DNA of 64,000 bases. Source: Corallococcus carmarthensis. Lineage in GTDB: Bacteria > Myxococcota > Myxococcia > Myxococcales > Myxococcaceae. The notes beneath the pieces were generated by a model. It was given only the letters and a program-made list of their open reading frames with translations. It had not been told where the DNA came from and did not search any database. Shown piece by piece: positions 19,877 through 36,959 of this stretch (the stretch's first letter is position 1; every line of letters begins with the position of its first letter). Location: positions 1 to 64,000 of the forward strand of contig NZ_RAWE01000013.1 in the NCBI RefSeq assembly GCF_003611695.1, in the 5' to 3' direction. The translations under genes and the position numbers were made by a program.

Positions 19877-20194
19877 CTAGGGAAGAATCCCGCCCGTCCA
19901 CGCCCGGACGTGGTTCGTGCCTCGCCACTCCTTGTTCTTCGCCTCAGCCGTGGAGTGGATCCGAAACATGATGCGCTTGGCGTTCGCCTTCTCGGGAACC
20001 TCGACAACCTCGTACGAGAGCACGGTCCCGCCGAAGTACGAGCGCTTCCCCTTGGTCTCGTGGAGGTAGATCGTTCCGCCGACGAGCTGAGCTGCCTCCT
20101 CGGGCGAGAAGTCCCAGTAGCCCGAGTTGTAGATCGGGGGTTTGACGGCATGAAGGTTGAGTTCACGCGCGCATTTGATGTGAGTACTCGCCAT
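19877..20194 (-). CDS. Hypothetical 105-residue protein
   Basis: The ATG at 20194 has GGGAG six bases upstream. The small soluble protein has a conserved-looking core: G-Y-W-D-F-S-P-E-E-A-A, G-G-T-I-Y-L-H-E-T-K, S-Y-F-G-G-T-V-L-S-Y-E-V-V-E and R-G-x-x-H-V-R-A-W-T-G-G. There is no signal peptide or membrane span. GC content is visibly lower (about 60 percent by eye) than in neighbouring genes, hinting at transfer. It begins 34 bp after the stop of the receptor-fusion gene on the same strand, so the two may share a transcript. I cannot assign a family; the beta-rich pattern vaguely recalls small nucleic-acid-reader folds, which is speculation. Confidence 0.75.
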   Translation of the reverse strand: MASTHIKCARELNLHAVKPPIYNSGYWDFSPEEAAQLVGGTIYLHETKGKRSYFGGTVLSYEVVEVPEKANAKRIMFRIHSTAEAKNKEWRGTNHVRAWTGGILP

Positions 20195-20228
20195 GGTTGC
20201 TCCCAGTTGAAGCGTAAGAGGTGGTGCC

Positions 20229-23200
20229 CTAGCCGACCGCGGCGGGGTCCACCCAGAGATCCTCGAAGCGCACCTGCGGCGGGGTCTGGTGCAGCCGCAG
20301 GTTCTGCACCGCCGCCGTCGCCGCCGCGTGCGTGCGGTCGTGGTATAGCGGGATGAGCGGGCAGTCCTCGCGTGCCAGCATCTCCGCGCGTTTGTAGAGC
20401 TGCGAGCGGAGCTCCGGGTCGATGGACACGCGCGCCTCGGCCGTCAGCCGGTCCAGCTCCGGGTTGCGATAGCCCAGCGGATACACCGTCTGCGCGCTGG
20501 AGTTGAGCAGGAAGTGCAGGAACGCATCCGGATCCGGGAAGTCCGCCAGCCACAGCGTGCGGAACGCCGGGACCTTCCCCTCGCGCAGGCGCGGCAGGTA
20601 CTCCTCCGGCGTCATCTGTTCGTGCCGCAGCTCCAGCAGCCCCGCTTGAATCAAGGGCCGGAAGAGCACCGCGTCCTCCGCGGACGTGTCGCGGCCCACC
20701 GGGTGGTGCAGGGTGAGCTGCAACCGCCGCACGCCCGCCTCGCGCAAGAGCCGCTCCGCCAGCGTCAGGTCCGGCACCGGCGCGGGCCCCAGCTCCTGTG
20801 CGCCATCCAGCAGCTCCGGCGGCGTGAACGTACGGGCCACACGCGCGCCCGGATGGAACTGCTCCACCACGCCCGGGATGTCCATGCCCGCGCGCAGCGC
20901 CCGCCGCACGCGCACGTCGTTGTAGGGCGCCTCGTTCAGGTTGAGACCCAGGAACGCCGTGGACGGCGTGGTGCTGGTCACCACCTGGTGCGCCTCCAGC
21001 CCCTTGGCCTCCGTGTGCTCCACGTGCAGGAACGACACGAGGTCCACCTGCCCGTCCAACAACTGCCGCACGGCCTGGAGACGCGTGTCCGCGAGGACGA
21101 ACTCCAACCGGTCCAGCAACGGGACCCCGCCGCGCCAGTAGGTGGCGTTGCGCTCCAGCACCATCCGGTCCTGCTGCATGCCGACGACGCGGAACGGGCC
21201 GGTGCCCACCAGCTTCCCCGAAGGGTCCAGCTTCGCCACCGCCGTGGCCGTCAGCGCCATGAGCTGGAGGAAGAACGCCTTGGGCTCGCGCAGGCGGATC
21301 TCCAGCGTGCCCTCGTCCAGGACTTCGATGCCTGTCACCTCGCGCGCCATGCCGCTGGAGTACTCGCGCGCGCCCTCCACGTCCTCCAGCAGGCTGCGGT
21401 CCGGCGAACGCAGCGCCGGGTCCATCAGCCGCTCCAGGTGACGCTTCACGTCCTGGGCGTTGAGCATGGTGCCGTCGTGGAAGGTGACACCCCGGCGCAG
21501 GTAGAAGCGGTAGCGGCGAGCGGACGGGTCCGCGTCCCAGCGCTCGGCCAGGTCGGGCACCAGCACGCCGTCCTCCAGCCGCACGAGGCAGGAGAAGAGA
21601 CACGCCGTCAGCTCCGCCATCTGGTTCTCGACGCTGAACAGCGGATCCACCACCTGCCGCGCGCGCAGCGAGCCCGACTGGTGCAGCCCCACCCGCAGCG
21701 TGCCGCCCGCCCTTGCCCGGGGCAGCTGGAAGCGGAACACCTCCGCCTCCAGGCTCGCCGTCTCGTGGCCCAGCTGGTCCACCGTGCGGTCCAACCCGTC
21801 GCCAATGCGGATGACCCGGCGCGCGTCCTCGCGCACCTGCGCGATCTCTTCACGGATGGACGCGTCGCCCCGGGTGAGCACCTGGTGCGCGGCCCGCAGC
21901 TCCTCGATGGCCGCGCTCAGGCGCATCACCGCTTCGGACAGATCGCGGCCGGTGCGTGCCTGGGCCTCGGCCTTCTGGCCGGCGCTCTGGCCCACGCGCG
22001 ACATCTCCTGAATCTGCCGCACCAGGTCCCGCGCGTTGCCGGACTGCTCGATGGCCATGCGCGTGATGTCCTCCACGCGCCGGGCCACGCGCTTGCTGGC
22101 CTCCACGACGGTGGCGCCCTGCGCCTCCAGCCGCTGCGTCTCCATCACCGTGGCCTCCACGGCGGCGAAGGTGCGCTGGGTGATGGAGCGGATCTCGCTC
22201 AGGGCCTCGGAGGCGCGGTCGCCCAGGGCCACGCCCGCGGTGGCCTGCTCGCGGCCCTCCTGCACCAGCGCCACGGCGGTCTCCACCGCGTCGCGGATGC
22301 CGGTGACCATGGTGCCAATCTCGCGCGTGGAGCGCGTGGTGCGCTCGGCGAGGCTGCGGATCTCGTTGGCCACCACGCCAAAGGGTCGGCCGTGCTCGCC
22401 CGCCTGCGCGGCGATGATGGCGGCGTTGAGGGCCAGGAGGTTCGTCTGGTCGGCGATCTCCTGGATGACGTCCACGATGCGGCCAATCTCCAGCGACCGC
22501 GTGCCGAGCATCTCCATCAGCTCGGCCGCCTTGCGCACCGTCTCCTCCACCCGGTACATGCCCTGCACGCTGTCGCTCACCAGCGCCTCGCCGCGCTGGG
22601 CGGTGGCGGTGACGGCGATGGCCATGCTGTTGGTGTCGGTGGCGCGGCGGCGCACGGCGTCGATGCCGCCCTCCACCAGCGCGACGAAGTCCTCCGCCTC
22701 GGAGGCGAAGCGGCCCAGCTCGTCACCCGACGCGGCGATGTGGGTCAGCCGCTCCGTCATCGCCTGGGTGAGGCCGCTGGTGCGCTGGCTGAAGTCGTTG
22801 ACGGTCTCCAGGCCGTCCACCACCTGGTGCAGCCGCTCGGTCATCTCCAGCAGGGCGCCCGTCGTCTCGTGCGCGAAGGTCTCGATGTGCTGCACGCGCT
22901 TGATGGCGACCTGGAGGCTGGTGCCGTTGCCGCCCACGGCGCTGAGCGTCCGCTCCACGGCGCCGCCCTGACGGCGCGCGGCCTCCAGCAGCATGCGGGC
23001 CTGCTCGCTCACGCCGTTGCCGGTGCGGTGCAGGTTGCTCGTCACGCGCTGCACCTGGGACATGGCGCGGCGCAGGGACAGGATGAGGCGGCGCAGGTCC
23101 TCCTGGCCCTCGAAGCCCGTGTGGATGGGCGTGGTGAGGTCGCCCTCCGCCAGCCGGGACATCAGGTCGCGCCGCTCGCGCCGGCGCATCGCCGCGAAGC

Positions 23201-23378
23201 GGAACCACGCCAGATAGCTGCCGATGAGCCAGAGGAACGGCACGCCAAGAATCAGCACCGCCCAGCCGGCCACGTCATCCGGCTGGCCCGTCACCCACCG
23301 CAGCAGCAGGCCCAGGATGAGCGCGGAAACCAGGGCCGCCGCCAGCCCGAACGAGAAGAGGTACCGTTTGGCGCCCAT
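20229..23378 (-). CDS. Methyl-accepting protein fused to family-5 solute-binding domain
   Basis: 1049 residues from the ATG at 23378; the open frame extends further upstream without coding character. Two membrane spans lie at about 6-28 and 38-58 with only a short loop between, so there is no periplasmic sensor. A HAMP-like/helical segment follows, then the receptor signalling domain with its hairpin tip near 305-330 (D-Q-T-N-L-L-A-L-N-A-A and G-x-x-F-x-V-V-A-N-E-I-R). From about 555 to the end is an SBP_bac_5 peptide-binding-protein domain (Y-R-F-Y-L-R-R-G-V-T-F-H-D-G-T, late L-A-D-F-P-D-P-D-A-F). By this topology the ligand domain is cytoplasmic. Probably senses an internal metabolite or peptide (inference). 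Confidence 0.88.
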   Translation of the reverse strand: MGAKRYLFSFGLAAALVSALILGLLLRWVTGQPDDVAGWAVLILGVPFLWLIGSYLAWFRFAAMRRRERRDLMSRLAEGDLTTPIHTGFEGQEDLRRLILSLRRAMSQVQRVTSNLHRTGNGVSEQARMLLEAARRQGGAVERTLSAVGGNGTSLQVAIKRVQHIETFAHETTGALLEMTERLHQVVDGLETVNDFSQRTSGLTQAMTERLTHIAASGDELGRFASEAEDFVALVEGGIDAVRRRATDTNSMAIAVTATAQRGEALVSDSVQGMYRVEETVRKAAELMEMLGTRSLEIGRIVDVIQEIADQTNLLALNAAIIAAQAGEHGRPFGVVANEIRSLAERTTRSTREIGTMVTGIRDAVETAVALVQEGREQATAGVALGDRASEALSEIRSITQRTFAAVEATVMETQRLEAQGATVVEASKRVARRVEDITRMAIEQSGNARDLVRQIQEMSRVGQSAGQKAEAQARTGRDLSEAVMRLSAAIEELRAAHQVLTRGDASIREEIAQVREDARRVIRIGDGLDRTVDQLGHETASLEAEVFRFQLPRARAGGTLRVGLHQSGSLRARQVVDPLFSVENQMAELTACLFSCLVRLEDGVLVPDLAERWDADPSARRYRFYLRRGVTFHDGTMLNAQDVKRHLERLMDPALRSPDRSLLEDVEGAREYSSGMAREVTGIEVLDEGTLEIRLREPKAFFLQLMALTATAVAKLDPSGKLVGTGPFRVVGMQQDRMVLERNATYWRGGVPLLDRLEFVLADTRLQAVRQLLDGQVDLVSFLHVEHTEAKGLEAHQVVTSTTPSTAFLGLNLNEAPYNDVRVRRALRAGMDIPGVVEQFHPGARVARTFTPPELLDGAQELGPAPVPDLTLAERLLREAGVRRLQLTLHHPVGRDTSAEDAVLFRPLIQAGLLELRHEQMTPEEYLPRLREGKVPAFRTLWLADFPDPDAFLHFLLNSSAQTVYPLGYRNPELDRLTAEARVSIDPELRSQLYKRAEMLAREDCPLIPLYHDRTHAAATAAVQNLRLHQTPPQVRFEDLWVDPAAVG

Positions 23379-23442
23379 GGACGGGGGGACGCTATCCCGC
23401 CTTCTCGCGCCGGTCCTCAATTCGACGCATGCTTGGCGACAC

Positions 23443-24492
23443 ATGAAGGCCTTCTTCGCCATCGCCATGCTGGCGCTCCCGGGAATCCCCGCCAGCACGG
23501 GCGCTGAGGCCGCCAGGGCAGCAAGCTCGGCCCGGTACGTCTTCGCGTGGCGGGGCGTGCCGGTGGGCACGGTGGGGCTGTCCCTGGACGCGGGGCGGTT
23601 CACGTACACCAGCCGGCACCTGCACGTGCGCGATGGCCGCGCGGGCGAACGCGTGCGTGAGGTGACGCTGCGAGTGGACGCCGCGGGGCGCGTGACGGGC
23701 GCGGACGCGGTGCCCCAGGCCCTGTGGCTGTGGCACGGGCCGCCGCCCGAGGGCTGCGTGAAGGGCCGCGAGGAGCTGTCCGGCCAGGAGGGACCCCACT
23801 GCGTCACGGCGAGAGGCGCCACCACCGCCGAGGGCACGATGCTCGGCGCGCGCTTCCGTGCCCGCTATGACGAACAGGGCCAGCTCCAGGCGCTGGAGGT
23901 GGGCGACTCCCGCTTCACCCTGGCGGCGCCCGGGGCGCGGCTGCGAGCACCGCCGGAGCTCTTCGCGGACGGGGTGCCCGTGGAGGGCGGCACCGACGGC
24001 GCCCTGAGGCTCGTGCCGGCCCGGCAGGAGGCACCGCGCGCTCCAGCGGTTCCCGCCCGGCTGCCGGACATGACGGAGTGGACGACAGCCGAAGCGCGGG
24101 CCCTGTCCGCGAAGGTGCACGCGGCCTTCCCGGACAAGGAGCCCACGGCGGCGGACTGGCGTTCGGGAGGGGAGGGCGAGGCCGGAGGCTGCCTGGCGCA
24201 CGCGCTGCGCTTCGCGTCCCTGGCGCGCGCCAGGGGGCAGCGGGTGGGGCTGGTGCACGGGCTGCTGGTGGTGGACGGCGGCGCCGCCCGGCCGCACGCC
24301 TGGGTGCGGGTGGCGCTGCGGGGCGGCGGGACGTTGGACCTGGACCCCACGTCCCTGGACTCCGTGCGTCCGGACACGCACCTGGCGTTGGCGCTGGTTC
24401 CGCCGGACGGCCCCGGCCTGGAGGCCGGGGAGCGATGGCTGTCGCTCCTGCGCGGAGACTGGCGCGTGGTGCGCGCTACTCGAACGGAATGA
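23443..24492 (+). CDS. Secreted transglutaminase-like domain protein
   Basis: 349 residues from the ATG at 23443, giving a signal sequence M-K-A-F-F-A-I-A-M-L-A-L. The C-terminal third carries a transglutaminase/cysteine-protease-type triad: Cys in E-A-G-G-C-L-A-H-A, His in A-R-P-H-A-W-V-R-V, Asp in L-D-L-D-P-T. The N-terminal region (A-W-R-G-V-P-V-G-T-V-G-L) resembles domains found beside such cores in exported proteins. Substrate unknown. It diverges from the receptor fusion (64-bp gap), and its 3' end overlaps the convergent astA by 17 bp. Confidence 0.75.
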   Translation: MKAFFAIAMLALPGIPASTGAEAARAASSARYVFAWRGVPVGTVGLSLDAGRFTYTSRHLHVRDGRAGERVREVTLRVDAAGRVTGADAVPQALWLWHGPPPEGCVKGREELSGQEGPHCVTARGATTAEGTMLGARFRARYDEQGQLQALEVGDSRFTLAAPGARLRAPPELFADGVPVEGGTDGALRLVPARQEAPRAPAVPARLPDMTEWTTAEARALSAKVHAAFPDKEPTAADWRSGGEGEAGGCLAHALRFASLARARGQRVGLVHGLLVVDGGAARPHAWVRVALRGGGTLDLDPTSLDSVRPDTHLALALVPPDGPGLEAGERWLSLLRGDWRVVRATRTE

Positions 24493-35057: not shown

Positions 35058-36959
35058 CTAGACGCGCCAGACGCCGGCCACGGACTCCATGCGCTCGGCC
35101 ACGCCCCGCAGGGCGTGCGTCATCCGCTGGGTGCCGTGCATGGCCTGGAGGGTGTCGTCCATCATCCGGGACAGGTCCGTGACGGCGGTGAAGATTTGCG
35201 CGATGCCGGCGTTCTGCTGGATGACGGCGGCGGCGATCTGCTGCGCCGCGGAAGCGTTGTCCTGGATGATGTCCGTCAGCGCATGCAGGCTCTGCCCGCT
35301 TTCGCGCACCTGGGCCAGGCCCGCCTCGGAGCGGCGCTGGCCCTCCTCGGAGAGCGCCACGGTGTCGCGGATGCCGCCGCGGATGGCGTCCAGGATTTCG
35401 CGCACCCGGCCGGTGGCATGGATGGACTGATCCGCGAGGCTGCGGATTTCGCGCGCCACCACGCCAAAGCCCTTGCCGTGTTCGCCGGAGCGCACCGCTT
35501 CGATGGCCGCGTTGAGCGCGAGCATGTTGGACTGGTCCGCCAGGTCCTTCACCGTCTGGGTGATGCCGCCAATCTGGTGCGTGCGCTCGTGGAGGGAGGA
35601 GATGCCATCCGCCAGGCGCGCGCCGTGCTCACGCAGCTGTTCGAAGCCGTCCAGGCTGGCGCCGAGCGCCTTCTGTCCGGAGCCACCCGCCTCGCGCGCC
35701 CGCGCCACCAGCGCGAGCACCGCCTGTGAGCGCTCCGCGGCGAGCTGCGAGGTCTGCTGAATCTCCTTCGCGGTGACCTGCGTCTCCTGGATGGCGGCAC
35801 CCTGCCGGGTGAGGTTGCGCTCCTGCTGCTCGGTGGCCTGGGTGAGCTCGCCCACCGTCTGCCCCAGCACGCGGGTGGCCTGCTGGAGGCTGGTGGTGGA
35901 CTCGCGCAGGTGGTCCATCATCCGTGAGACGGCGGAGGCCAGCTCGCCCACCTCGTCCTGGTGGCCGTGCGACTCCACCTTCTGGGTGAGGTCGCCTTCG
36001 CGCACCACGCGAGTCACCAGCGCGCTCAGCGTGGTGATGGGCCGGGTCACGCCGCGCGCCAGGGCCCAGGCGGCCAGGACGGCCAGCCCCAGGAGCACGG
36101 CCACCGCGAACAGGCTGAGCTGGAGGAAGCGCCGCAGGGGCAGGAAGGCCTCGTTCGCGTCCATCGCCGCCACGAAGCGCCAGCCCTTGCCCGCGGTGAA
36201 GCGGGCGGTGTCGTCGCGGGCTTCGGCCCGGACGGAGTCCACGAGGCCTGGCGCGGTCGCGGCCCGGGAGCTGAAGAGGCGGCCTCCGTCGGGCGCGAAG
36301 ATCTCCAGGGTGAAGCTCCTCTGCCCCCGGTCGTGGGCGCGGTTGACCGCGCCCGCGACCACCTCCTCCAACTGGCCCCAGTCATACGCGGCCAGCAGCA
36401 CGCCCACGCGCGCGCCGGAGATGGGGCTGAGGACGGGCAGGGCCAGGGGCATCACCGGGCGGGCGAAGAAGGGGTCCTTCTTCGTCAGCGCGTTCGTGAG
36501 GATGGCGGCGTCCAGCCGGCCCTCCAGCGCGGTCTGGAACCAGGGGGCGGCGAGCACCTCCTGCTCGCGTCCAGCGAAGGCCTGACGCAGCTCCGGCCGG
36601 CTCACGGAGACGGCGCGCCCATCCGCGGTGAACAGCACCAGGCCCGCGAAGCTGGTGTGGCGGCCGTTGAGGGAGGCGAGCACCGCGTCGCTCTTGGCGT
36701 AGGTGTCGAAGAGGAGCGCGCCGCGCACGATGGCGTCCTCGGTCCACGCGCGGGCGTTCGCTTCGCGCTCGTGCAGGGACGCTTCGATGAGGTCTTGCAG
36801 GCCCTGGGCCTCCACGTGGAGGACGCCTTGCACCTGCTGCTCCAGGTTGCGCCGGATGACGTGGACCCCTACCGCGACGACGGGGGTGAGGGCCGCGACG
36901 AGCAGCAGGCAGACCCACAGCGTGAGGCGGCCCCGCAACTTCAATCCGGACAGGCGCAT
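35058..36959 (-). CDS. Methyl-accepting chemotaxis protein with periplasmic Cache-like sensor
   Basis: 633 residues from the ATG at 36959. The first membrane span lies at about 10-35, an extracytoplasmic Cache-type domain about 36-285 ([27 protein letters not shown]), a second span about 290-312, then HAMP (G-V-T-R-P-I-T-T-L) and the signalling domain with tip [24 protein letters not shown]-x-V-V-A. It starts 31 bp after the gene for a separate Cache-like exported protein, suggesting a two-protein sensor unit. Confidence 0.93.

Follow-up and report, generated by a model that had tools for sequence, protein, structure and literature searches.

A stretch of 64,000 nucleotides from the 10.8-Mb genome of Corallococcus carmarthensis, hereafter the window, carries on its reverse strand a gene (20229-23378) that encodes a chemoreceptor with a C-terminal SBP_bac_5 domain and is evidently the counterpart, in Corallococcus, of the Myxococcus xanthus gene mcpK (MXAN_6456), to which it is orthologous. 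With somewhat better than even probability, its product is a membrane-anchored receptor that senses oligopeptides in the cytoplasm and signals to a Group-1 chemosensory (Che) system, either Che7/Che8 or Dif. This proposal is built on domain content, gene integrity, predicted topology, orthologue distribution, ligand-type residues and the class of the signalling tip. The existence of McpK, and its listing as a methyl-accepting chemotaxis protein (MCP) with a solute-binding domain, are already published (Moine et al., 2014; PMC3945109), and the interest lies in the mechanism; what is new here is the predicted N-in/C-in topology, the OppA-type anchor residues, the conserved linker and an Ile/Gln tip. 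Positions refer to the window and residue numbers to the 1,049-residue protein.

The gene is a single unbroken frame that starts with the ATG at 23378 and stops at 20229-20231, and in its product a Pfam search placed MCPsignal (PF00015) at residues 254-417 (E-value 6e-33) and SBP_bac_5 (PF00496) at residues 606-962 (model positions 2-365 of 368, E-value 3e-64), both far beyond cut-off. The fusion of an MCP signalling domain with an SBP_bac_5 domain described in an earlier note on this DNA is thereby confirmed, as is its observation of a chemoreceptor whose peptide-binding domain is predicted to be internal. The span given there, 19877-23378, also takes in an unrelated small gene, and the receptor itself occupies 20229-23378. 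The receptor and its parts are as follows:

20229..23378 (-), mcpK orthologue, a 1049-aa membrane-anchored chemoreceptor with C-terminal SBP_bac_5 (single frame, PF00015 and PF00496, full-length orthologues)
23295..23366 (-), predicted first membrane span, residues ~5-28, N-terminus inside (hydropathy in orthologues; Lys/Arg in the five N-terminal residues)
23199..23264 (-), predicted second membrane span, residues ~39-60, then an Arg-rich cytoplasmic flank (Lys/Arg counts in 25 orthologues)
23043..23198 (-), HAMP-like stretch, residues 61-112 (LAEGDLTTPI...), a likeness seen by eye, with no HAMP match there in the Pfam search
22128..22619 (-), MCPsignal domain, residues 254-417 (Pfam)
22344..22493 (-), hairpin tip, residues 296-345, better conserved than any other part (mean pairwise identity 84%)
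22404..22415 (-), I322 to Q325, the Tsr E385/R388 ionic-lock positions, with Ile and Gln instead (alignment with Tsr)
21723..21908 (-), linker region from receptor to solute-binding domain, residues 491-552 (66.5% mean pairwise identity)
20232..21722 (-), SBP_bac_5 domain, residues 553-1049, with homology to OppA/DppA-type peptide-binding proteins along its whole length (PDB matches; Pfam 606-962)
20541..20561 (-), R940, W943 and D946, corresponding to OppA R413, W416 and D419 (alignment with Escherichia coli OppA, DppA and SgrR)

The complete, two-lobed solute-binding protein (SBP) domain, whose mean identity is 56% across 32 representative orthologues, has as its best PDB sequence match 8upi (E-value 9e-40) and matches OppA with an E-value of 3e-35 over about 420 aligned residues. 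R940 and D946 are each conserved in 31 of the 32 representatives and W943 in all of them. Structural work on OppA has established that D419 pairs with the amino group of the peptide and that R413 is among the partners of its carboxylate. McpK keeps the equivalents of both, whereas SgrR has Asn at the D419 position and a gap at that of R413, which argues for a peptide over a sugar phosphate or a nucleotide; the equivalent of DppA R355, the carboxylate partner in that protein, is not kept. From these residues, an OppA-type peptide rather than a sugar phosphate is favoured, short of proof, as the ligand. OppA and DppA are free periplasmic or lipid-anchored proteins that feed an ATP-binding cassette (ABC) importer, whereas the homologous domain of McpK is fused to a receptor and predicted to be cytoplasmic.

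Another cytoplasmic metabolite (sugar phosphate, nucleotide or amino acid), as proposed for SgrR relatives, is an unlikely ligand, albeit one with precedents. SgrR and V. cholerae DsvR demonstrate that SBP_bac_5 can serve as a cytoplasmic sensor (PMC13060122), glutamate binding has been reported for SgrR (PMC13060122), and the ligands of family-5 proteins are very varied. Beyond the anchor residues lost in SgrR, McpK is closer to OppA and DppA (24% identity to each) than to SgrR (20%), and its family-model match is far stronger for OppA (E-value 7e-31) than for SgrR (2e-8). The analogy with SgrR drawn in the earlier note thus holds for the cytoplasmic location, where the domain is likewise the presumed sensor of a regulator, but not for the ligand. 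The output differs as well, being DNA binding in SgrR and DsvR and, in the proposal, a Che kinase for McpK, in which the Pfam search found an MCP domain before SBP_bac_5 and no DNA-binding domain.

The linker at residues 491-552 exceeds the SBP domain and each of the two coiled-coil arms in conservation, which is what a segment that passes on a signal would show. Quite unlikely is a role of the SBP domain in docking or as a scaffold, be it at the cytoplasmic face of an ABC importer or on another protein, in which it binds no small ligand. The C-terminal arm of the coiled coil returns towards the membrane, which would bring the domain near membrane proteins, and no transporter gene is coupled to mcpK among its conserved neighbours, a point that we count in favour of docking. 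Conservation of the cleft speaks against it, since R940, W943 and D946 are kept in 31-32 of the 32 divergent orthologues in a domain that averages 56% identity.

An internal peptide sensor requires the SBP domain to lie on the cytoplasmic side of the membrane, and such a location is predicted here, unless experiment says otherwise. Two hydrophobic segments near the N-terminus are separated by a loop of about 10 residues, and Lys and Arg residues were counted in 25 divergent orthologues whose N-termini are complete. The mean is 1.7 for the first five residues of the protein, 0.3 for the 10-residue loop and 5.0 for the 17 residues that follow the second span, a classic positive-inside pattern that argues for an N-in/C-in topology. 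When the remainder of the protein after residue 70 was scanned in segments of 19 residues (Kyte-Doolittle mean, threshold 1.6), no segment rose above the threshold in 31 of the 32 representatives; the remaining one has a segment of 1.69 that lies inside the signalling coiled coil. The stretch that leads from the signalling domain to the SBP domain is free of hydrophobic segments in all 32. Both the earlier reading of two N-terminal spans with almost no loop and that of an SBP domain in the cytoplasm with no further span agree with these data.

It is very improbable that the SBP domain lies outside the cell through an inverted topology or a missed third span. SBPs are normally extracytoplasmic, and Table 1 of PMC3945109 gives three membrane spans for M. 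xanthus McpK by TMHMM. With no later span and with the charge pattern described, that third span is not supported, and a periplasmic SBP domain is rejected on hydropathy and charge; the tip that binds CheW and CheA must, moreover, be cytoplasmic. The SBPs of ABC importers carry a signal peptide or lipobox and are extracytoplasmic, whereas in McpK no span separates the SBP domain from the cytoplasmic signalling arm that precedes it. Internal sensing by MCPs is known, for example, from Aer-type, PAS or CZB receptors, which have cytoplasmic sensors or short periplasmic loops. McpK would share internal sensing with them, but its sensor would be a C-terminal clamshell peptide-binding domain of about 500 residues.

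Orthologues were sought in 145 genomes from the order and in 195 from the phylum (Myxococcota); the scan of the genome collection was tuned to close relatives, and the distribution of the architecture is given within Myxococcota. Nearly all Myxococcaceae genomes searched carry full-length in-frame orthologues, mostly of 51-96% identity, and members of three neighbouring families have them at 36-48% identity, some incomplete in draft assemblies; the range over all these groups is 36-100%. The nearest named relatives are from Corallococcus species (89-96% identity), and the orthologue of M. xanthus AM003 is 77% identical over 1047 residues and has the same neighbours, the divergent transglutaminase-like gene and astA. 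Together with a VTT-domain gene and rlmN, these two genes adjoin mcpK in the majority of the family, a sign of vertical inheritance. The fusion is an old and real gene, and chance or artefactual joining is excluded: that a frameshift introduced in sequencing or assembly fused two genes, or that the fusion is decaying, has a negligible probability, for although one Myxococcus genome has its frame broken exactly at the junction, full-length in-frame orthologues occur in many independent genomes, some of them single contigs, which rules out the frameshift that the earlier note had named as one of two refuting cases.

Several irregular copies were found. In the Myxococcus genome with the broken frame (G098, C4:214696-217816, equivalent to L074:4697-7817), the break at the receptor/SBP junction may reflect fission, decay or an assembly error. 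One genus of the family, represented by four genomes of 12-14 Mb, has two copies of mcpK, the second of which sits in a different neighbourhood at the three loci checked. Record BNCN01000012.1, titled Comamonas sp. KCTC 72670, holds a Myxococcus-like mcpK (77% identity to that of the window) in Myxococcus gene order, and is probably a mislabelled or contaminated assembly. Viral contigs scanned for relatives to deepen the alignment yielded none.

The equation with MXAN_6456 rests on length, architecture and the fact that McpK is the sole SBP-bearing MCP in the published table, where it is an orphan MCP of 1048 aa with a "bacterial extracellular solute-binding proteins domain" (Moine et al., 2014; PMC3945109). 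The window protein shares its approximate length, the combination of MCP and solute-binding domains and its place as a Group 1 orphan, but is predicted to have two spans, whereas M. xanthus McpK was published with three spans, as class 44H and with a link to Dif. Searching the literature for MXAN_6456 as a locus tag, or for the motif of the tip, gave no match, and no published ligand or mechanism for McpK was found; the passages of PMC3945109 covered here that name McpK give no ligand and do not discuss polarity.

The hairpin tip, placed by the earlier note near residues 305-330 and found here at 296-345, is of the kind that binds CheW and CheA, and such binding is predicted for McpK from its conservation. 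In Tsr, E385 and R388 link the dimers of a receptor trimer through an ionic lock (PMC8144572), and trimer contact residues are described as nearly invariant (PMC4692393). In the McpK tip (NAAIIAAQAGE), contact positions such as L380 and N381 of Tsr are kept but E385 and R388 are not, I322 being present in all 32 representatives and Q325 in 31. Among the 22 receptors of this genome, the Ile/Gln tip occurs in two, McpK and a McpJ-like orphan beside the tat genes, and a DNA pattern for it was found in 79 of the 195 phylum genomes (0 for the reversed control). This tip therefore marks a sub-class of MCP tips, which also exists without McpK, rather than a loss of MCP identity.

In a tree of signalling regions, McpK is sister to the McpJ-like Ile/Gln-tip orphan (support 93/83), and their group also holds DifA-like (91/78) and Mcp7-like receptors, whereas the FrzCD-like receptors form a separate clade of their own with good support. 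Receptor names in this genome were assigned from size, tip and gene neighbours, without direct comparison with M. xanthus proteins. This position away from the FrzCD-like clade makes a Frz partner improbable, and the link is disfavoured here; the earlier proposal that an internal ligand is coupled to a Che/Frz-type pathway therefore fits all sequence evidence in its Che part but not in its Frz part, for which PMC3945109, too, gives Dif instead. That paper assigned McpK, DifA, Mcp7, McpB and McpJ to Group 1, called both DifA and McpK class 44H, suggested that both serve the Dif system, and linked McpJ and Mcp7 to the Che7/Che8 side. The DifA-like receptor has a 14-residue insertion in the C-terminal arm that McpK lacks, and the arms of McpK align gap-free with those of the McpJ-like orphan. 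Taken with the tree, this agrees with Group 1 but argues against a team in which DifA and McpK mix, and favours the Che7/Che8 side instead. The partner of McpK is predicted to be a Group-1 Che system, Che7/Che8 or Dif.

In the mechanism that we infer for ligand, sensing step, mechanical coupling, partner kinase and output, a two-helix hairpin would tether McpK to the inner membrane with no periplasmic sensor, and the OppA-type binding domain would follow, on the cytoplasmic side, upon the returning (C-terminal) arm of the signalling coiled coil. Cytoplasmic oligopeptides derived from Opp/Dpp-type import, internal proteolysis or wall recycling would close the SBP clamshell, and through the linker at residues 491-552 this motion would displace the C-terminal arm while the N-terminal arm stays fixed in the membrane. 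A change of state at the tip of the hairpin would then alter the CheA kinase of Group-1 systems (Che7/Che8 or Dif), with multicellular development as the putative output. A more specific and tentative version holds that McpK couples the internal peptide pool, as a signal of starvation, predation or wall recycling, to a Che kinase in development, within a team composed only of Ile/Gln-tip receptors that cannot mix with Glu/Arg receptors.

Several points weigh against the proposal of an internal peptide receptor. Residues of the OppA type may be shared by family-5 proteins whose ligands are not peptides, so that a peptide is not certain. The assignment of the partner conflicts with the Dif link of PMC3945109, which counted heptads differently. 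AlphaFold models made with 17 sequences are of low confidence (mean predicted local distance difference test score 44 for the full length and 53 for the SBP domain alone), and a Foldseek search with the latter returned OppA/DppA chains at template-modelling scores of ~0.3 and a root-mean-square deviation of ~17; neither was used as evidence, and the geometry of coupling stays inferred. Finally, within 150 residues of the tip there is no match to the strict CheR methylation consensus, although 10 of the 32 representatives have one at residue 488, and adaptation by CheR/CheB may thus be weak or absent, a weak point given that several other receptors of this genome also have no strict sites.

On the side of the output, at least 13 mcp mutants of M. 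xanthus have fruiting-body defects, whereas mcpG, mcpI, mcpJ, mcpL and Mcp4 mutants have none, and the mutants named as defective in social (S) motility do not include mcpK (PMC3945109); that loss of mcpK impairs development can be deduced solely by exclusion. It is only partly understood how myxobacteria perceive their nutritional condition and relay it to the pathways of motility and development, and McpK offers a single testable candidate. If the proposal is true, the role of OppA-type proteins would reach beyond uptake in the periplasm into signalling within the cytoplasm, and the Ile/Gln tip would provide a sequence rule for which of about 20 receptors can share a signalling team.

Downstream of mcpK lies the small gene that the earlier note had included:

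19877-20194 (-), gene for a 105-aa protein, an open reading frame starting 34 bp after the mcpK stop

The spacing of 34 bp is as first reported, but the gene lies beside mcpK in only 2 of 16 same-genus genomes, this one included. The protein matches no Pfam family, and its gene is found elsewhere in six further genomes, sporadically in Myxococcota, in changing positions and at 36-80% identity. Owing to this sporadic occurrence, it was rejected as a partner of McpK and is a sporadic accessory gene.

On the other side, the divergent gene at 23443-24492 (+) is the most constant neighbour of mcpK, and a functional link is possible; it has a weak transglutaminase-like match below the Pfam cut-off and, judged by eye, is probably secreted. 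Between the two genes, a TAGCGT-like element in 23379-23400 (-), ~13-18 bp upstream of the mcpK start, is kept in many orthologues. In many orthologues, too, the start has no evident ribosome-binding site, and the transcript is possibly leaderless. The window also holds a second orphan chemoreceptor signalling domain at 35166-35603 (-), whose tip is of the ordinary Glu-bearing type.

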